Shown: positions 2,799-35,920 of the stretch, piece after piece | Layout: every line of letters starts with the position of its first letter | Position numbering within the stretch: position 1 is the stretch's first letter | IMG/VR virus record: IMGVR_UViG_3300004369_000057 | Coordinates: 1 to 35,920 of that record | Reading direction: 5' to 3' (one strand) | DNA: 35,920 nt | From: a virus | Program-made: the position numbers and the translations under genes | Notes under the pieces: model-generated | Told to the model about the DNA's origin: nothing | What the model saw: only the letters and a program-made list of their open reading frames with translations | Databases searched by the model: none

Positions 2799-3199
2799 AC
2801 CAATTTTGGATAGCCAATTCCGTAACCACCCGCGAAGAGTTTCTTGCATACGCCAAGAAGCTGATGGACGAAAACCCCTATGTTATGTGGGAGTGGGTGT
2901 ACGGAAAGCCGAGGACAGGCAAGCAGAACAATTCTCTATGGCTATTTTGCAGGCTGTTGGCAGAGGAGCTAAACAAGCACGGGATCACCTTTCAGGAGTT
3001 TTTCAAGGAAGGCTATCAAGTCCCCTGGTCAAAAGACATTGTAAAGGAAAACATCTGGAATCCCATGCAGAAAGCGGTAGCGGGTGAGACCAGTAGCGCA
3101 GACTTAACCACCATCGAGGTTCAGCAAATCTATGAACACATCAATTCAAAAGCGGCTGACGCTGGCATTCACGTGCCTTGGCCTGTGAGGGATAAGTAG
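2795..3199 (+). CDS. NinB-like phage recombination-associated protein
   Basis: The 134-residue protein contains RTGKQNNSLWLFCRLLAEEL, which aligns in pattern with the QNRKLWACL helix of lambda NinB (Orf), followed by a conserved IPW-type segment (VPWSKDIVKENIWNPMQ) and a C-terminal HVPWP. This family is widespread in phage early operons. Lambda Orf is a recombination mediator acting with SSB on single-stranded DNA. NinG downstream and the ssb tail at the window's end make a recombination role plausible, but the NinB link rests on motif pattern only. Confidence 0.5.
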   Translation: MNQFWIANSVTTREEFLAYAKKLMDENPYVMWEWVYGKPRTGKQNNSLWLFCRLLAEELNKHGITFQEFFKEGYQVPWSKDIVKENIWNPMQKAVAGETSSADLTTIEVQQIYEHINSKAADAGIHVPWPVRDK

Positions 3200-4425
3200 T
3201 GCCTAAGAACTGGAACTGGATAGCCGTACCAGAAGAAGCTGTCACTTTGTTTTCAACAGAGAATCAGCGCAGGGTGTTTTCCCAGCTACGGCAAGGGAAG
3301 ATGTTTAAAGAAATCTCTAAGGAAAACGGGGTTTCTTTCAATGCTATAGAACACACTGTGGCGAGGATGAAAGCGACCCTCGGAAGGCACGGCTGTGATC
3401 CGGAGCATGACTACCTGATAACGGCAGGCTCCCCTTTTGTACTGAATAACAAGACTGTCCACAGGAAGGTAAATCCAGAGACGGGGGAGCTAGAGGTTCA
3501 CCAGATATGGGATAAGCCAACGATTTCAGCAGAGGGCATGGAAGAGGCTTTCAGGGAGTTCATATCCGGCCTGTGTTCTGACATAAAACCAGTTAAAGCC
3601 AAGGCAGCACCAAAGACCAAGACAGACTCGGATTTGCTTTCTGCGATATTCATCGGTGACGCGCATCTTGGCATGTACGCCTATGGAAAAGAAACCAAGC
3701 ACTCAGATTTTGACACTGACATAGCGGTTAAGGGTTTGAGGGATGCTGTAGATGACTTAGTGGAGAGAGCGCCAAACGCAGAGACCTGCATGATTGTTGA
3801 TGTAGGCGATTTCATGCACCAGAACGGCACGGCAGCTAAGACAGCGAAAGGAACAGAGCTAGATGTGGACTCCAGGTATCCCAGAGTCCTCCGGCAGTCT
3901 GGAAAGGTTATGAAGTACATCATTTCCAGAGCTTTAGAAAAGTTCAAGAAGGTGATTGTTGTTATTTCAAGAGGAAACCACAACCAAGACCCCGCTATTG
4001 CTGTGCAGGAGATTCTATCCGCCTACTTCCACGATGAGCCACGGGTTCAGGTATTGGATACGGATGGATACTTCCACTATATCGAATGGGGCAAGTGGTT
4101 ATTCGGAGTAAATCACGGGGACAAGATCAAACCTCCCAAGCTGGTAAGCGTTATGGCTAGGGATATGGCAACGGCTTGGGGCAGGACAACTCACAGAATG
4201 TGGGCTTTGGGGCATTACCACCACGAGCAGGTAATGGAGATGGAGGGCTGTACTGTTCACCGATTTGGCGCTTTGCCCCCGCCTGATGCTTGGCACGCCT
4301 CCTCTGGATACGGCGGGGACGGTCAGATGCAGATGATTACCTTCAGGAAGGAAGGCGGGAAGCATTCTACTTTGGTGTATGACGTGCCGAGACCGATTGT
4401 TGAGCCTGATGTGGTGATTGCATGA
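3199..4425 (+). CDS. Calcineurin-like metallophosphoesterase with N-terminal HTH
   Basis: The 408-residue protein has all metal-binding blocks of the calcineurin-like superfamily: D154-x-H156 (GDAHLG), G203-D204, G259-N260-H261, H306, and G338-H339-x-H341. Residues about 21-60 form a helix-turn-helix resembling sigma/LuxR C-terminal domains (MFKEISKENGVSFNAIEH). This suggests DNA targeting followed by a phosphodiesterase or nuclease active site, as in Mre11/SbcD-type enzymes, though size and substrate are unknown. GTG start overlaps the previous TAG. The early-operon setting fits DNA processing; phosphatase activity on protein or nucleotides cannot be excluded. Confidence 0.8.
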   Translation: MPKNWNWIAVPEEAVTLFSTENQRRVFSQLRQGKMFKEISKENGVSFNAIEHTVARMKATLGRHGCDPEHDYLITAGSPFVLNNKTVHRKVNPETGELEVHQIWDKPTISAEGMEEAFREFISGLCSDIKPVKAKAAPKTKTDSDLLSAIFIGDAHLGMYAYGKETKHSDFDTDIAVKGLRDAVDDLVERAPNAETCMIVDVGDFMHQNGTAAKTAKGTELDVDSRYPRVLRQSGKVMKYIISRALEKFKKVIVVISRGNHNQDPAIAVQEILSAYFHDEPRVQVLDTDGYFHYIEWGKWLFGVNHGDKIKPPKLVSVMARDMATAWGRTTHRMWALGHYHHEQVMEMEGCTVHRFGALPPPDAWHASSGYGGDGQMQMITFRKEGGKHSTLVYDVPRPIVEPDVVIA

Positions 4426-4679
4426 CATACCTAGTGCTATTCGCCTTCACTTTCGTTTCTGTCTTCCTAAGAAGCAGGCAGCAGCTAAATGTTGTGCATT
4501 ACAAGTGGTCAAGAATCCCGCTCACGTCTTACGGGATGCAGTTGTGTCAGGTGGCGAGCATTTTATTGATAGTTGAACTATCCACGCCTGTAGAGATATT
4601 CGGAGCGGTTCTGTCAGGAGGCACAGGGGCTTGCTTGGGGTGCTTTCTGGGTATGTGGTTACACAAGAGGCAGGATTGA
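4422..4679 (+). CDS. Small membrane protein (85 aa)
   Basis: Three hydrophobic stretches are visible: residues 3-16, about 38-52, and about 58-78 (Gly-rich, with GACLGCFLG). A hydrophilic NVVHYKWSRIPL loop sits between the first two. ATGA overlap with the phosphoesterase. Size and topology are compatible with a holin or an early inner-membrane protein, but its place in the early operon argues against a lysis role. No family assigned. Confidence 0.65.
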   Translation: MTYLVLFAFTFVSVFLRSRQQLNVVHYKWSRIPLTSYGMQLCQVASILLIVELSTPVEIFGAVLSGGTGACLGCFLGMWLHKRQD

Positions 4680-4691
4680 GGAGGAGAGGGA

Positions 4692-4835
4692 ATGAACAGG
4701 TCTACTACGAACAGAGCGCTGATTGTTGTGAACATCATTTGCGCGGCATTAATGGCAGTTTCTGGCTCATACGGGGTTATGAGCATAAACCTTGTGGCCT
4801 TTGCTCTCCTGACTTACGTCGAGGCAAGCACATGA
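4692..4835 (+). CDS. Very small membrane protein (47 aa)
   Basis: This short gene has a very strong ribosome-binding site (AGGAGGAGAGGG) just before the ATG. The peptide has a short basic N-terminus, one hydrophobic segment (ALIVVNIICAALMAV) and a second weaker one (INLVAFALLTY). Its TGA overlaps the next ATG. The strong RBS and tight coupling on both sides argue it is real. Function unknown. Confidence 0.65.
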   Translation: MNRSTTNRALIVVNIICAALMAVSGSYGVMSINLVAFALLTYVEAST

Positions 4836-5062
4836 ACACCGCCACCATCACTGAAGAAGAGTACCAAGCAGCCAAAACCAACGAGGAAAGGCTGGAGCTA
4901 TTTAAGTCAAAGGGTCTTCCCATGAGGGACAACGGCACTATGGACACAGACAACTACACCATCCTTCAGAGGAAGGTTGTTACCTACAATTACAAGTGGG
5001 CACCGATAGGCGAGATATTTGTCAGGGCTGTAGAGGGGCCGACAAGTGGCAACAGCGACTAG
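4832..5062 (+). CDS. Hypothetical early protein (76 aa)
   Basis: ATG overlaps the TGA of the small membrane protein. Acidic N-terminal helix (EEEYQAAKTNEERLELF), then a possible beta region (NYTILQRKVVTYNYKWAPIG). Cysteine-free. No family recognised. Its 3' end overlaps the ninG-like gene by 17 nt. Confidence 0.6.
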   Translation: MNTATITEEEYQAAKTNEERLELFKSKGLPMRDNGTMDTDNYTILQRKVVTYNYKWAPIGEIFVRAVEGPTSGNSD

Positions 5063-5486
5063 GAAGAAAGCAGGGAGCCTTGACTCAGTTAGGGAGAAGC
5101 TAGCCACAGCCCTACAGAAGCTTGTCAGGCTCAAAGAGGCGGTCAATCACCCTAATGGTTACGTCCAGTGTTGGTCATGCGGAATATGGAAGCACTGGAA
5201 GGAAATGCAGGGCGGTCACTGGATTGAAAGGACTAAGAAATCCACTAAGACCATAGAAGAAAACATCCATCCTCAGTGTGCGGGATGTAACGGGTTTGGC
5301 TGGAAGTACGCAACAGAGAAGAAGGATAGGTACTGCCGGAACATGAGAGATTTTTACGGGGATGACTTTTGTGACGAATTAATTGCTTTGAGTAACACCC
5401 CCGTTAAGGAATATCGGGCAGACATTGAAGAGAGATTGAAAGAAGTCAGGGCACAGATTAAGGAACTGGAGAAGGAGGCGGCGTGA
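5046..5486 (+). CDS. ninG: NinG/Rap-like recombination endonuclease
   Basis: The 146-residue protein has a zinc centre C42-W-S-C45 ... G-G-H58-W-I ... C78-A-G-C81-N, the layout of lambda NinG (Rap), a structure-specific nuclease acting on recombination intermediates. An N-terminal helix and a C-terminal charged coiled coil (residues 115-145) flank the core. GTG start, with GAGGGG about 8 nt upstream. Together with a NinB-like gene upstream and a Q-position gene downstream it reproduces the lambda nin-region order. Confidence 0.75.
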   Translation: MATATRKKAGSLDSVREKLATALQKLVRLKEAVNHPNGYVQCWSCGIWKHWKEMQGGHWIERTKKSTKTIEENIHPQCAGCNGFGWKYATEKKDRYCRNMRDFYGDDFCDELIALSNTPVKEYRADIEERLKEVRAQIKELEKEAA

Positions 5487-5701
5487 AACAATTTGATACT
5501 GATCTGGTATTTTTTGAAGAGCAGAACTGCCCAGATTTGGGCAGCTATGTCTGTGTTGACGTATACGGCGAGGGAGGGTTTGGAAACACGGCAATAGGAA
5601 TGGGCAGAACCAGATTGGCGGCAATCAAGGCTGCAAGGAAAAGGCTTGGCAGATTGCTTAAAGATTTGGACAGGATGGAAAAGTTGGAGAATCGGCGTTG
5701 A
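5483..5701 (+). CDS. Hypothetical early protein (72 aa)
   Basis: GTG start overlapping the ninG stop (GTGA). The first half is acidic and strand-rich (FDTDLVFFEEQNCPDLGSYV); the second half is a basic helix (AAIKAARKRLGRLLKDLDRM). A central GEGGFGNTAIGMG stretch could be a turn. No family recognised. Coupled to the next gene by a TTGA overlap. Confidence 0.6.
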   Translation: MKQFDTDLVFFEEQNCPDLGSYVCVDVYGEGGFGNTAIGMGRTRLAAIKAARKRLGRLLKDLDRMEKLENRR

Positions 5702-6198
5702 GCAAACAATCCACCGTTACCAAGCTAATCAACATCTACCTAGACGGCCTAGTGTCGATAGGTAACGATGCTGGATGGGAGGGCGATAGCTTTCTTGCTA
5801 GGGTGATTCAGTTTGCCGGAGTACCGCCCAAGGGTACAGGCATGGATCAGTCTAACCAAGCCATGATAAACGCTATGGACAGGTTCAAGGCGAAGCATAA
5901 GGACTTCCCCTTGATTAATGGGATAGTAACGCGGCTCGTGTCTAAGCCAGCCACAAGGCGGCATATCCTGGCCCTACTGATTGCCCTGTACTATCACGGA
6001 ATCAACGACAGGACGGGCAAGGCGTACTCAGACGATGACTTAATCTCTATCTGGGCAGAACACTGCAACCGAGCGCCTTGGGACGATGCGGAACTGCTGA
6101 ATCTGAAAAGGGAAGAGGCTTTGCGCCAATTTGAGTATGGAAAATGGAGAGCAGCGCCGAGGCTGATTCGACGGGAACTCATGCTTGACACTGTATAA
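5698..6198 (+). CDS. Putative late-gene regulator in the Q position
   Basis: The 166-residue protein starts at TTG overlapping the preceding stop. It is the last gene of the early operon, after ninB- and ninG-like genes and before the lysis region, exactly where lambdoid phages keep the Q antiterminator or DUF1133-type late regulators. The C-terminal part (LLIALYYHGIND...DDLISIWAEHCN...RRELM) is helical and recalls DUF1133. I see no zinc motif. The role rests mainly on synteny. Its stop codon lies inside the LexA box of the next unit. Confidence 0.45.
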   Translation: MSKQSTVTKLINIYLDGLVSIGNDAGWEGDSFLARVIQFAGVPPKGTGMDQSNQAMINAMDRFKAKHKDFPLINGIVTRLVSKPATRRHILALLIALYYHGINDRTGKAYSDDDLISIWAEHCNRAPWDDAELLNLKREEALRQFEYGKWRAAPRLIRRELMLDTV

Positions 6199-6213
6199 AT
6201 ATACAGTCATAAT
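6185..6213 (+). promoter_or_regulatory. LexA-controlled sigma70 promoter
   Basis: A perfect -35 TTGACA (6185-6190) is followed by a 17-nt spacer and the -10 CATAAT (6208-6213, five of six consensus). The entire spacer is an SOS operator. Expected transcription start is near 6220, about 30 nt before the TTG of the T5orf172-like gene. LexA bound here would block RNA polymerase directly, so DNA damage should switch it on. Confidence 0.88.
6191..6206. promoter_or_regulatory. LexA box (SOS operator)
   Basis: The sequence is CTGTATAAATATACAG, the CTGT-N8-ACAG form of the enterobacterial LexA site with an alternating A/T core. With flanking bases it is an 8-bp perfect inverted repeat around AA (6190-6207). 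It also contains the stop codon of the upstream Q-position gene. Confidence 0.9.
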
Positions 6214-6250
6214 GACCCCGAAATAAGTTGAGAAAATTGCGCCCCAAGCC

Positions 6251-6769
6251 TTGTCCGTAGATTGCATACCGGGATCGCCCGCCCATTACGTGTACTGTAT
6301 GATGTGCAGGGATGGTGATGGGCCTTTATATGTAAAATTTGGTCGGTCTATGCGGATAATGCAGAGGCTGACAGAAATAAAGACAAGCTGCCCGATTCCC
6401 GCAAAGTGGTTTATGACAATCCGCGCTGGCAGGCAGAAAATGGCCGTCAGGCTGGAAAAGGCATTACACGAACACTTCTCTTCACGGCATTCTACCGGAG
6501 AGTGGTTTAAGTTTGACGTGCATTCCGCTGAGGATAAAAAAGACTTTAACGAAGGGATTGCTTGGGCTGCAAAATATGTTCTTGGCTCCGCTCATCCCTA
6601 TAAATGGGACAAGTTGAGCGTTCCCGCCCTCAACAGATACAACCAAGGGAAAAAGCAAAGGTTTTTAAACTGCAAGAACAGAAACGTCATTGCAGCTAGA
6701 GCCAAAAAAGACCGGAAAAGACGCTCCGCATGGAAGGAATTGTCTGAGTATGGATCGGCAACAACCTAA
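6251..6769 (+). CDS. T5orf172/GIY-YIG-like protein under SOS control
   Basis: The 172-residue protein fits the T5orf172 (MUG113) branch of the GIY-YIG superfamily: Y13-V-Y15 (GIY strand), L26-YVKFG31 (YIG strand), R39, E69 with H73 and H75-F76 in the helix, and G83-EWF86. A lysine/arginine-rich tail (about 130-165) could contact nucleic acid. The only credible start is TTG 6251, because the domain begins at residue 12. It has its own LexA-regulated promoter and its own terminator, so it is a free-standing, damage-induced transcription unit. T5orf172 activity is not established; nuclease function is inferred from the fold. Confidence 0.8.
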   Translation: MSVDCIPGSPAHYVYCMMCRDGDGPLYVKFGRSMRIMQRLTEIKTSCPIPAKWFMTIRAGRQKMAVRLEKALHEHFSSRHSTGEWFKFDVHSAEDKKDFNEGIAWAAKYVLGSAHPYKWDKLSVPALNRYNQGKKQRFLNCKNRNVIAARAKKDRKRRSAWKELSEYGSATT

Positions 6770-6790
6770 ACATACCAAATAAGACATATT

Positions 6791-6840
6791 GGGAACCATC
6801 GTTCCCCCCCCCATAGAACCCTGCTTCGGCGGGGTTTTTT
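6791..6840 (+). terminator. Tandem hairpins and rho-independent terminator
   Basis: A first hairpin GGGAAC-CATC-GTTCCC (6791-6806) runs into a tract of nine C. The terminator proper is AACCCTGC-TTCG-GCGGGGTT (6817-6836), with an uninterrupted T run at 6835-6840. It closes the SOS-controlled unit. Confidence 0.88.
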
Positions 6841-6874: not shown

Positions 6875-7303
6875 ATGAGACAGTACATCATTCCCGCATT
6901 ATTGACAGTTTCGATAAGTATTACGGGGTGGACAGCTTCCACTCAGGTCGAGGCTTTGCGGTGGTTGGAGAGATTGCAGGCAAATCAGGACTTTGCGGTA
7001 GCCAGCATAGCAAGTAACTCCGAAAGGATAGAGGCCAATAGCTCGCGCATTGTGAGCAGTGAACGCCAATTGCAGGATGTTCCAGAGATCATAGCCAAGA
7101 CTCTAGCGATACAGTCGATGTCTGGGCAGTTGACCGAGTTATCCACAGAGCGCAACAGGCTATCGAGGATAGTCAACGGATTTACCCAGATGCCAGCCAG
7201 CCCAGATGATGAAATGGCTTATCTGGACGTTCTGAGCGCCATTGATGAGCTTTGCTTTGATATGGAGAACAATCACGGGTCTTCCCATAGGGCTTGTAGG
7301 TGA
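6875..7303 (+). CDS. Membrane-anchored coiled-coil lysis-region protein
   Basis: The 142-residue product has one N-terminal membrane helix (IIPALLTVSISITGWTAST, residues about 5-23) followed by a long helical region (residues 30-105). Only C132 and C141 are near the C-terminus. Topology and position, overlapping the endolysin gene by GTGA, fit an inner-membrane spanin (Rz-like) or a single-span holin; neither is proven. ATG 6875 is chosen because the membrane helix follows at once; an AAAGGTG lies 18 nt upstream, which is long. Confidence 0.55.
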   Translation: MRQYIIPALLTVSISITGWTASTQVEALRWLERLQANQDFAVASIASNSERIEANSSRIVSSERQLQDVPEIIAKTLAIQSMSGQLTELSTERNRLSRIVNGFTQMPASPDDEMAYLDVLSAIDELCFDMENNHGSSHRACR

Positions 7304-7710
7304 GCCTGGCTGAAAGGCTGAAGAGGCACGAGGGATACGAGACATTCCCCTATCCCGATCCTGTGAAGGGATATGACGCTATTACCATCGGAGTAGGGCA
7401 TAACCTAAGTGCCAACGGACTCCCAGATTTCATAATTGACCAGCTGCTAGACTACGACATTGGAGTAGCTAGGAACGAGCTAGACCGAATACACCCAGAA
7501 TGGCGGAGCTACAGTCCTAATCGGAAAGACGCCTTAACGGAGCTTATGTTCATTATGGGCGCTCCCACCCTCTTATCATTTAAGAGGATGTGGGGCTATA
7601 TCAAGACGGGGGATTGGGCAGAGGCGGCTGTAGAGCTGTTAGATTCCCGATTTGCCGAACAGGTGGGCCAGAGGGCGCACACAATCGCGGATTTGTTAGA
7701 AGATGGGTAG
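7300..7710 (+). CDS. Endolysin, GH24 (T4-type) lysozyme
   Basis: The 136-residue muramidase has the family triad E11 (RHEGYE), D20 (YPD) and T29 (ITIGVGH). It would cleave the MurNAc-GlcNAc bond of peptidoglycan. No signal or SAR anchor is visible, so a holin is needed for release. GTG start overlaps the upstream stop. Slightly shorter than T4 lysozyme (164 residues). Confidence 0.9.
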   Translation: MSLAERLKRHEGYETFPYPDPVKGYDAITIGVGHNLSANGLPDFIIDQLLDYDIGVARNELDRIHPEWRSYSPNRKDALTELMFIMGAPTLLSFKRMWGYIKTGDWAEAAVELLDSRFAEQVGQRAHTIADLLEDG

Positions 7711-8086
7711 CTTTCTCAACTCGCTAAAGGTCGAGGATTGGCAATCAAACAAGTGGAAGCTATTAGCCCCGCTTGATTACGTGACCACTATCAACGGCGC
7801 ACATAGGCAGATAACCGTCCCTGAAGGCTTCGTAACCGATCTGGCGAGCATTCCCAGACCACTACAGGCCATTATCCCCAAGGTGGCAAAACACCGTAGG
7901 GCGGCTGTATTGCATGACTACCTGTATGCCATTAGAGGCAACTTGCCGGATGTAATGCTGTCTCGGGCGCAGTGTGATGGATTATTCCTAGAGGCTATGG
8001 AGTCGGCAGGAGTGAGATTCACCCGTAGATGGGCCATGTATCTAGGTGTCCGGTCTGGTGGCTGGGTTTTTTGGAAGCAGAACTGA
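7703..8086 (+). CDS. DUF1353 family protein
   Basis: The 127-residue protein shows the DUF1353 landmarks: FVTDLASIPRPLQAI, AAVLHDYLY, then CDGLFLEAM and RWAMYLGVRSGGWVFW. The family is common beside phage lysis or tail genes and has no settled function; the conserved D, H and D residues suggest a metal or hydrolase site. It overlaps the endolysin by 8 nt and probably ends the late lysis transcript. The convergent accessory operon begins 125 nt further on. Confidence 0.8.
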   Translation: MGSFLNSLKVEDWQSNKWKLLAPLDYVTTINGAHRQITVPEGFVTDLASIPRPLQAIIPKVAKHRRAAVLHDYLYAIRGNLPDVMLSRAQCDGLFLEAMESAGVRFTRRWAMYLGVRSGGWVFWKQN

Positions 8087-12305: not shown

Positions 12306-12473
12306 TTACCAAGCGGGTGGGGCGATTATGCCTCGATGCTCCCAAGCTTTCTGTAAGCCTTTCCTCCAATTTGCCCGAAGAGGCTTGCCAGCCATTCGCT
12401 TGATTCTTCTTAGTGAGTACGCTGAGTTTCGGCGCGTATTGCGCCAGTTGCCTATGCTTCCTAATCCGATCAT
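12306..12473 (-). CDS. Small highly basic protein downstream of a LexA box
   Basis: The 55-residue product starts at an ATG with AGGAG 7 nt upstream. It is strongly cationic, with many R, K and W residues (NWRNTRRNS, SLRRIKRMAGKPLRANWRKG) and ends HRGIIAPPAW. Nucleic-acid or membrane binding is possible. It is the only minus-strand gene between accessory and structural blocks, and a canonical LexA box lies 50 nt upstream, so SOS control is plausible. No family recognised. Confidence 0.55.
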   Translation of the reverse strand: MIGLGSIGNWRNTRRNSAYSLRRIKRMAGKPLRANWRKGLQKAWEHRGIIAPPAW

Positions 12474-12523
12474 AAGAATTCTCCTGTAACCGGACAATAG
12501 CACAAGAGACTTATTGAAGACTG

Positions 12524-12539
12524 CTGTATATCCATACAG
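12524..12539. promoter_or_regulatory. Second LexA box
   Basis: CTGTATATCCATACAG fits CTGT-N8-ACAG, with A/T-rich flanks close to consensus. Located upstream of the 55-residue minus gene. I could not fix a convincing promoter on the minus strand; on the plus strand TTGAAG (12514-12519) and CAGTAT 17 nt later overlap the box but are weak. The rest of 12474-12607 holds no gene that I can support. Confidence 0.82.
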
Positions 12540-12607
12540 TATTCCCCAAAAGCACCATAATTCGGCTTCACATTAGCCTATCTCAGCGCGATTAAGCGCA
12601 AACTAGA

Positions 12608-35533: not shown

Positions 35534-35872
35534 CTACTGGCCTTTGTAAATCAGCGCATCGGCTTTGCCTGTAAACACAAGCCAAGTGCAGTAGAGCCTA
35601 TGCCAAGGGGATGAATAGCCAACAGGTCGGGCAACTACCCATCTGCCATCTGGCAGTCCAGCGGCTTCATGCTGTGCTGATTTAACCAATTCGTCTGCGT
35701 GTCTTAATCCGGGGTATTTCACTCTACTAATCCTCCTGTGTGGTGTTAAATATCGCCCAAAAACAGTCTGCCAGGGGATTCCGACTTCCATCGCCGCCCG
35801 CTTTAGGTGCTTGTGTTTTTCGTAGGCTTTGGCGCACCGCTCCATAGCCTCTTGTTTAGTAAGAGTTACCAT
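35534..35872 (-). CDS. HTH-like protein downstream of ssb (112 aa)
   Basis: The N-terminal 40 residues read as a helix-turn-helix (EAMERCAKAYEKHKHLKRAAMEVGIPWQTVFGRYL), resembling the DNA-binding part of phage regulatory or resolvase-type proteins. The rest (LPDGRWVVARPVGYSSPWHRLYCTWLVFTGKADALIYKGQ) is a mixed alpha/beta segment of unknown type. Its start overlaps the ssb stop (ATGGTAA), so the two are coupled. Confidence 0.62.
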   Translation of the reverse strand: MVTLTKQEAMERCAKAYEKHKHLKRAAMEVGIPWQTVFGRYLTPHRRISRVKYPGLRHADELVKSAQHEAAGLPDGRWVVARPVGYSSPWHRLYCTWLVFTGKADALIYKGQ

Positions 35873-35920
35873 GGGATATCGTCATCCGGAAAGTTATCAA
35901 ACCCCTGCGGCTGCTGTTGC
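35866..35920 (-). CDS. ssb: Single-stranded DNA-binding protein, C-terminal end
   Basis: Only the last 17 codons lie in the window: a Q/P-rich linker and the acidic tail FPDDDIPW followed by stop. This tip is diagnostic for bacterial-type SSB, whose last residues dock DNA-repair and replication partners. Here the final residue is W instead of the usual F. The gene continues beyond the window edge. Confidence 0.85.
   Translation of the reverse strand, partial: QQQPQGFDNFPDDDIPW

Follow-up and report, generated by a model that had tools for sequence, protein, structure and literature searches.

In phage lambda, the SOS response works through the repressor, and the late promoter is permanently active, awaiting the antiterminator Q. 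The Q-pR'-tR' arrangement of lambda and phage 21 presents, in order, an antiterminator gene, a promoter near its end, a leader, a terminator and the lysis genes. The same order is found in the viral DNA described here (the window, 35,920 bp, an entire IMG/VR record), which differs in adding a LexA-type operator within the promoter spacer and a gene for a T5orf172 protein within the leader. The likeness extends to the fold of the Q-like protein, which matches that of Q21, antitermination in the window being predicted.

Late promoters and accessory genes of other phages offer further points of comparison. The late promoter P3 of phage GIL01 carries host LexA boxes, and its late genes await damage together with a second phage factor (PMC6182141). 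GIL01 therefore resembles the window in having host LexA boxes at a late promoter, whereas it infects Bacillus and uses the LexA-like activator gp6 and gp7 instead of Q antitermination (PMC6182141). In Stx-type lambdoid phages, accessory genes located between pR' and the lysis genes, downstream of Q, are transcribed from the late promoter, and the abstract cited here reports no LexA site (PMC6266700). Unlike that cargo, the cargo of the window is a T5orf172 gene which ends at the leader terminator, and it should therefore not need Q. LexA-controlled antirepressor units, namely Tum, AntC and GfoA, are also known (PMC3121763); as in the window, their LexA-type promoter belongs to a temperate phage but lies away from its immunity region. 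These units encode antirepressors, whereas the window gene encodes a nuclease-type protein that is no known antirepressor. Finally, T5orf172 homing genes (PMC10448857) and a T5orf172 gene of Sulfitobacter phage pCB2047-A, located beside a RusA gene and adjoining the repressor region (PMC4047441), share with the window gene the domain and a presence that varies among near relatives; unlike the homing genes, the window gene has no zinc finger and occupies a late leader. SOS boxes in prophages have been surveyed by PSOSP (PMC12527982), and in the open-access literature we found no report of LexA on a Q-dependent late promoter. As developed below, we consider it moderately probable that the window carries a late promoter of the Q type under LexA repression, and that the T5orf172 nuclease gene is cargo of its leader.

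The probable late promoter and the gene upstream of it

The final early marker preceding the late-control region is a NinG/Rap-like gene on the plus strand (5046-5486; PHROG 5034, E 8e-17), whose synteny is kept in L311-L314 and in L421. A 72-aa ORF separates it from the plus-strand gene at 5698-6198, the 166-aa product of which matched no family in sequence-family searches. An AF2 model built from the single sequence of this protein was useless, and one built with 12 homologs reached a pLDDT of 76.8. VIA-align 2 places Q21 (6p1c) at the top for the latter model, with a Z of 6.5 over 107 residues, which lies below the guide value of Z 8 for a structural match; the next row has a Z of 3.9, and sigma factor chains are among those that follow. 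Foldseek alone returned nothing significant for the better model. By itself, a Z of 6.5 could reflect a common helical arrangement and is no proof of Q21 identity. We infer a Q21-type antiterminator from the fold match taken together with synteny and the promoter-terminator pair, and the gene and promoter occupy the positions that Q and pR' have in lambda.

The promoter at 6185-6213 on the plus strand has the form TTGACA-17-CATAAT (-35 element at 6185-6190, -10 element at 6208-6213), matches at 11 of 12 positions and is the top scorer in the 5-8 kb interval; transcription would be expected to start near 6220. The -35 element falls among the final codons of the Q-like gene and, together with half of the operator, overlaps the 3' end of that gene (...MLDTV*, stop at 6196-6198). 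Sixteen of the 17 spacer bases are occupied by CTGTATAAATATACAG at 6191-6206, which overlaps the RNA polymerase binding site and forms the core of the LexA-type operator CACTGTATAAATATACAGTC at 6189-6208 (plus strand). The sequence-only reading of this DNA had proposed just such a promoter, with a CTGT-N8-ACAG operator filling its spacer, and that proposal was borne out. The window has 3 exact copies of the CTGT-N8-ACAG pattern, where 0.53 would be expected. On an SOS matrix built from E. coli SOS boxes, which may not fit the LexA type of the host, the operator scores 22.9, inside the range of the training boxes (17.4-27.1); a site at 12522-12541 scores 24.2, and no further site exceeds 12.1. 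Across 300 dinucleotide shuffles of the full window, a score of 21 was never reached. The element at 6189-6208 is a predicted LexA site.

A palindrome in this position might instead be the operator of a phage protein, either a repressor or Q, with a resemblance to LexA boxes and nothing more. Such a reading could draw on the lambda Q-binding element, which lies in the pR' spacer, and on the absence of the immunity region from the contig. We regard it as very unlikely, because the score is that of a real SOS box, a second such box stands at a distance (at 12522), the repressor region of the related contig L017 has unrelated TTAGCATTTG-type repeats together with a LexA-like box of its own, and the palindrome is missing in most of the relatives that have homologous Q-like proteins.

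Promoter, leader and terminator among relatives

Structural relatives obtained from terminase and MCP scans had no T5orf172 gene and mostly possessed other early regions. A scan with the syntenic phosphoesterase (3199-4425) led to syntenic phages, including Q-like homologs in L311-L314 and L317, and an alignment-based scan of IMG/VR located Q-like homologs in 17 loci, several of which are siblings or re-finds, so that the distinct phages are fewer. A single-protein scan with the Q-like gene gave no matches. The closest relative of the window is L401 (MCP 84%, portal 64%, lysozyme 66%, Q-like protein 57% identical).

Near the end of the Q-like gene, a promoter with a 17-bp spacer is present in 10 of the 11 distinct regions examined, the window included, although some of the relatives' promoters match at just 8-9 of 12 positions and were chosen by position. 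One small ORF separates the Q-like gene and the promoter in L411, and L417 offers 18-bp candidates only. A MAFFT alignment of the relatives' promoter DNA was too divergent for use, and the promoter of L401 does not agree base for base with that of the window. The regular placement of the promoter is suggestive, and in L407/L317 the -35 element likewise lies inside the codons for the C-terminal LDTV of the Q-like protein. Several relatives also have in common a leader motif, TATTGTGGGA, located 7-9 nt past the -10 element, which is degraded to 6 of 10 bases in the window and in L416 and is perhaps a Q or pause element.

The leader of the window ends at a tR'-like intrinsic terminator (6815-6840, plus strand), with a UUCG-loop stem at 6815-6838 and a T run; an 81-nt stretch of this region folds with a z of -2.7. 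A terminator with a TTCG loop had been noted from the sequence alone, and the folding result agrees with it. The window hairpin, ACCCTGCTTCGGCGGGGTTTTTT, recurs nearly identically in L401, where it lies 71 nt past the -10 element. By script, which takes the first T-tailed hairpin, the distance from the -10 element is 44-96 nt in L401, L402, L403, L411, L413 and L415, 313 nt in L404, 554 nt in L416 and 621 nt in the window; the hairpin of L407 was taken by eye from its sibling L317. The two longest distances, those of L416 and the window, belong to the two regions that contain a T5orf172 gene.

Beyond the terminator, the plus strand carries a gene at 6875-7303 whose position and hydrophobic N-terminus suggest, by eye, a first lysis cassette gene of the holin/spanin type, and whose homolog in L421 (35% identity) stands directly ahead of the L421 lysozyme. 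It is followed by an endolysin (phage lysozyme) gene at 7300-7710 (PF00959, E 1.2e-5; PHROG 7, E 2e-11) and by the last gene of the syntenic block, which encodes a DUF1353 protein (7703-8086; PF07087, E 3.6e-28). Lysis-type genes lie downstream in 6 of the 7 phages read (L311, L314, L401, L413, L415 and L416), a count in which the downstream lysozymes of L314, L401 and L413 are tblastn homologs and the remaining lysis calls were made by eye. The exception is L317, whose lysozyme is located elsewhere.

These comparisons bear on the proposal, made from the sequence alone, that promoter, operator, gene and terminator form an autonomous SOS unit independent of phage circuits. All four components are present, but the comparison does not support the independence: relatives have the promoter near the end of the Q21-like gene, and the T-tailed hairpin, without T5orf172, so that the unit looks like a late-control module with an extra leader gene. 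It is accordingly unlikely, in our judgement, that an SOS cassette was inserted as one moron between the early and lysis genes, with the true late promoter elsewhere or displaced. The completeness of the promoter-gene-terminator unit, the lack of base-for-base agreement with the L401 promoter and the degraded state of TATTGTGGGA would all suit such a cassette. It accounts poorly for a terminator equal to that of L401, whose leader has no T5orf172, for a 5-8 kb interval with no other strong plus-strand promoter ahead of the lysis genes, for the presence of T5orf172 without the box in L416, and for the -35 element of L407/L317, positioned in the same LDTV codons as that of the window.

The T5orf172 gene and its place in the leader

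The T5orf172/MUG113 (GIY-YIG-like) gene occupies 6251-6769 on the plus strand, in the leader interval between promoter and terminator, and encodes 172 aa. Its product matches T5orf172 (PF10544, E 4.1e-8) and MUG113 (PF13455, E 3.7e-9), both passing the cut-off (34.1 bits against a curated 20), which upholds the sequence-only assignment of a single GIY-YIG-like gene. The frame opens with a TTG at 6251 and its stop is at 6769; the start is backed by alignment with the L416 homolog (LSVDCIP against MSLFQIP). On reading the sequence, no clear Shine-Dalgarno element was seen before this TTG, and a start codon of this kind counts against the favoured reading. Y15, R39, E69, H73 and an EWF motif are invariant between the protein and its homologs, and R39 and E69 are the Arg and Glu of GIY-YIG catalytic type, kept in the alignments. 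The protein is a predicted nuclease, and one guess is that its target is the DNA of competing phages or leaders without the gene.

A single-protein scan with the T5orf172 protein gave no matches, tblastn in phages gave domain-only matches at E 1e-4 or worse, and a search with P0001 of 398 Pseudomonadota genomes, run with no positive control, gave zero matches. A pattern scan of viral contigs for LexA sites within promoters revealed, by eye, no T5orf172 in the downstream ORFs among the matches listed. An apparent recurrent case of a LexA site within a promoter, the L255 group, was dropped as its upstream ORF is implausible.

Presence of the gene in the leader varies among relatives. The leader of L401 is without T5orf172, and a different T5orf172 gene lies elsewhere in the L401 genome. 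L416, a distant relative, has a homolog at the matching place (phmmer 1.8e-26, 33-34% identity). The sister phage of L416, L415, has flanks that are alike up to the -10 element and from the terminator on, with a different insert between them. From these three leaders, one without T5orf172, one with it and one with another insert, it seems that phages with the Q-like gene use the leader as a slot for cargo, T5orf172 being one such cargo. The L415 insert (L415:744-1028) consists of a 94-aa ORF and an extra hairpin.

Two further readings concern the function of the cargo and are compatible with a LexA-repressed late promoter. One of them, a doubtful possibility, is that T5orf172 is a free-standing homing endonuclease that cuts leaders without it, LexA control being incidental. 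L416 and its sister L415 differ at this one leader site, the R and E residues of GIY-YIG type are invariant, and T5orf172 genes have been described as homing genes beside essential phage genes (PMC10448857). Zinc-finger domains, found in 87% of those described T5orf172 homing genes (PMC10448857), set them apart from the window protein, which has no zinc-finger DNA-binding domain beyond the nuclease domain (Pfam, E up to 1) and only a single cysteine past residue 95; moreover, the L415 site holds another insert and is not empty, and two members are all that are known. The other reading, which we hold to be improbable, makes T5orf172 an anti-phage defence effector in the cargo slot. It draws on a weak match to the PADLOC candidate PDC-S57 (2.9e-5 over 70 of 212 profile positions; 4.1e-8 for the L416 homolog) and on a prophage, L142, whose Q-to-lysis interval holds KwaA-KwaB with a LexA-type box. 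PDC-S57 is itself just a candidate system, the match is limited to the nuclease domain, and expression shut by LexA would be odd for a standing defence.

Under the favoured reading of a LexA-repressed Q-type late promoter, the locus would serve a temperate podovirus-like phage as its late-control module, composed of Q21-like gene, late promoter, leader, tR'-like terminator and lysis genes, in which the promoter spacer would have turned into a LexA operator and the leader would have received the T5orf172 gene. In a lysogen, LexA would hold the promoter at 6185-6213 shut. Damage would remove LexA, whereupon polymerase would start, T5orf172 mRNA would be made and transcription would stop at the terminator near 6840; if Q were also made, the terminator would be read through into the lysis and head genes. 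A single key, SOS, would thus be enough for T5orf172, and lysis would require two, SOS and Q. Given the degraded TATTGTGGGA, Q may be unable to work on the window promoter in its present form; if that motif is a Q or pause element, the T5orf172 insertion may have altered Q control. Additionally, a late promoter shut by LexA would hinder lytic growth when undamaged cells are infected, except where LexA is overcome through copy number or replication. If the favoured reading is true, a LexA operator in a Q-type late promoter adds a second damage checkpoint at lysis and explains how a leader gene could be expressed upon SOS without the late genes; it also yields a rule for finding phage cargo genes, namely to search between the Q-proximal promoter and its terminator.

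LexA-type sites in relatives and elsewhere in the window

In the phages compared, presence of the LexA box is not tied to that of T5orf172. The sequence-only reading had made its case depend on the box being conserved in close relatives that keep the gene; in the sole such relative found, the distant L416, the LexA score at the promoter is just 2.4. Conversely, L413, which has no T5orf172, carries an exact CTGTACGTATTGACAG across its -35 element, one of its two LexA-type sites missing an invariant base, and L401 has a degenerate site, CTG-N10-CAT, just 5' of its -35 element, with a score of 18.5 and an invariant base missing. LexA scores of at least 18 are found in 3 of 11 promoter regions; setting aside the window, which was picked for its box, the count is 2 of 10. 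Among random 160-mers drawn from these phages, 0.19% score as high. Independent support for LexA at this promoter is one exact site (L413) and one degenerate site (L401). The tree of Q-like proteins joins the window and L401 as sisters (98/97) and positions L413 apart from them, on weak support; given that weakly supported position, the LexA site at the late promoter may have had one origin or two. Only tentatively would we extend the favoured reading to a family of Q21-like temperate phages in which an antitermination late promoter came under LexA control, perhaps more than once, with two-key lysis and a leader cargo expressed upon damage only.

The second strong LexA-type box of the window, TGCTGTATATCCATACAGTA at 12522-12541 (plus strand), lies past the lysis region and ahead of the small terminase gene. 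Downstream of it on the minus strand is a 55-aa basic ORF (12306-12473) with an AGGAG ribosome site, for which a family search returned no family. L424, the contig of L414 (a sibling of L413), has a LexA-like box at 7620, with a score of 17.2, near a minus-strand small ORF before the terminase gene.

The window ends, at 35860-35920, inside a minus-strand ssb-like frame and is probably an incomplete genome, as it stops short of the repressor-cro region that would be expected to follow on the model of L017; a tRNA scan found none. In L017, which is nearest to the window by terminase, the interval 4220-4720 contains a repressor-like ORF of 108 aa that has only a weak helix-turn-helix match and in which no peptidase domain was found. 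A LexA-like box (18.4) is also present there, and the minus-strand ORF that goes with it extends into the 3' end of the repressor-like gene, an arrangement that is perhaps an SOS-driven switch.

LexA-type boxes were also observed in two prophages. In a Pantoea MAG prophage (L142:2708-4134), the KwaA-KwaB pair of the Kiwa defence system (PADLOC E 1e-78 and 1e-121) separates antitermination Q from the lysis genes, and the box CTGTATATAAATACAG, with a score of 25.9, is situated shortly 5' of kwaA. In a Janthinobacterium prophage (L128:6908-7446), CTGTTTGTAAACACAG lies inside a TTGCAC-18-TATAAT promoter approximately 20 bp past an ORF that weakly matches a Q-like family (PHROG 6060, E 0.002); this may be another late promoter with a LexA site.
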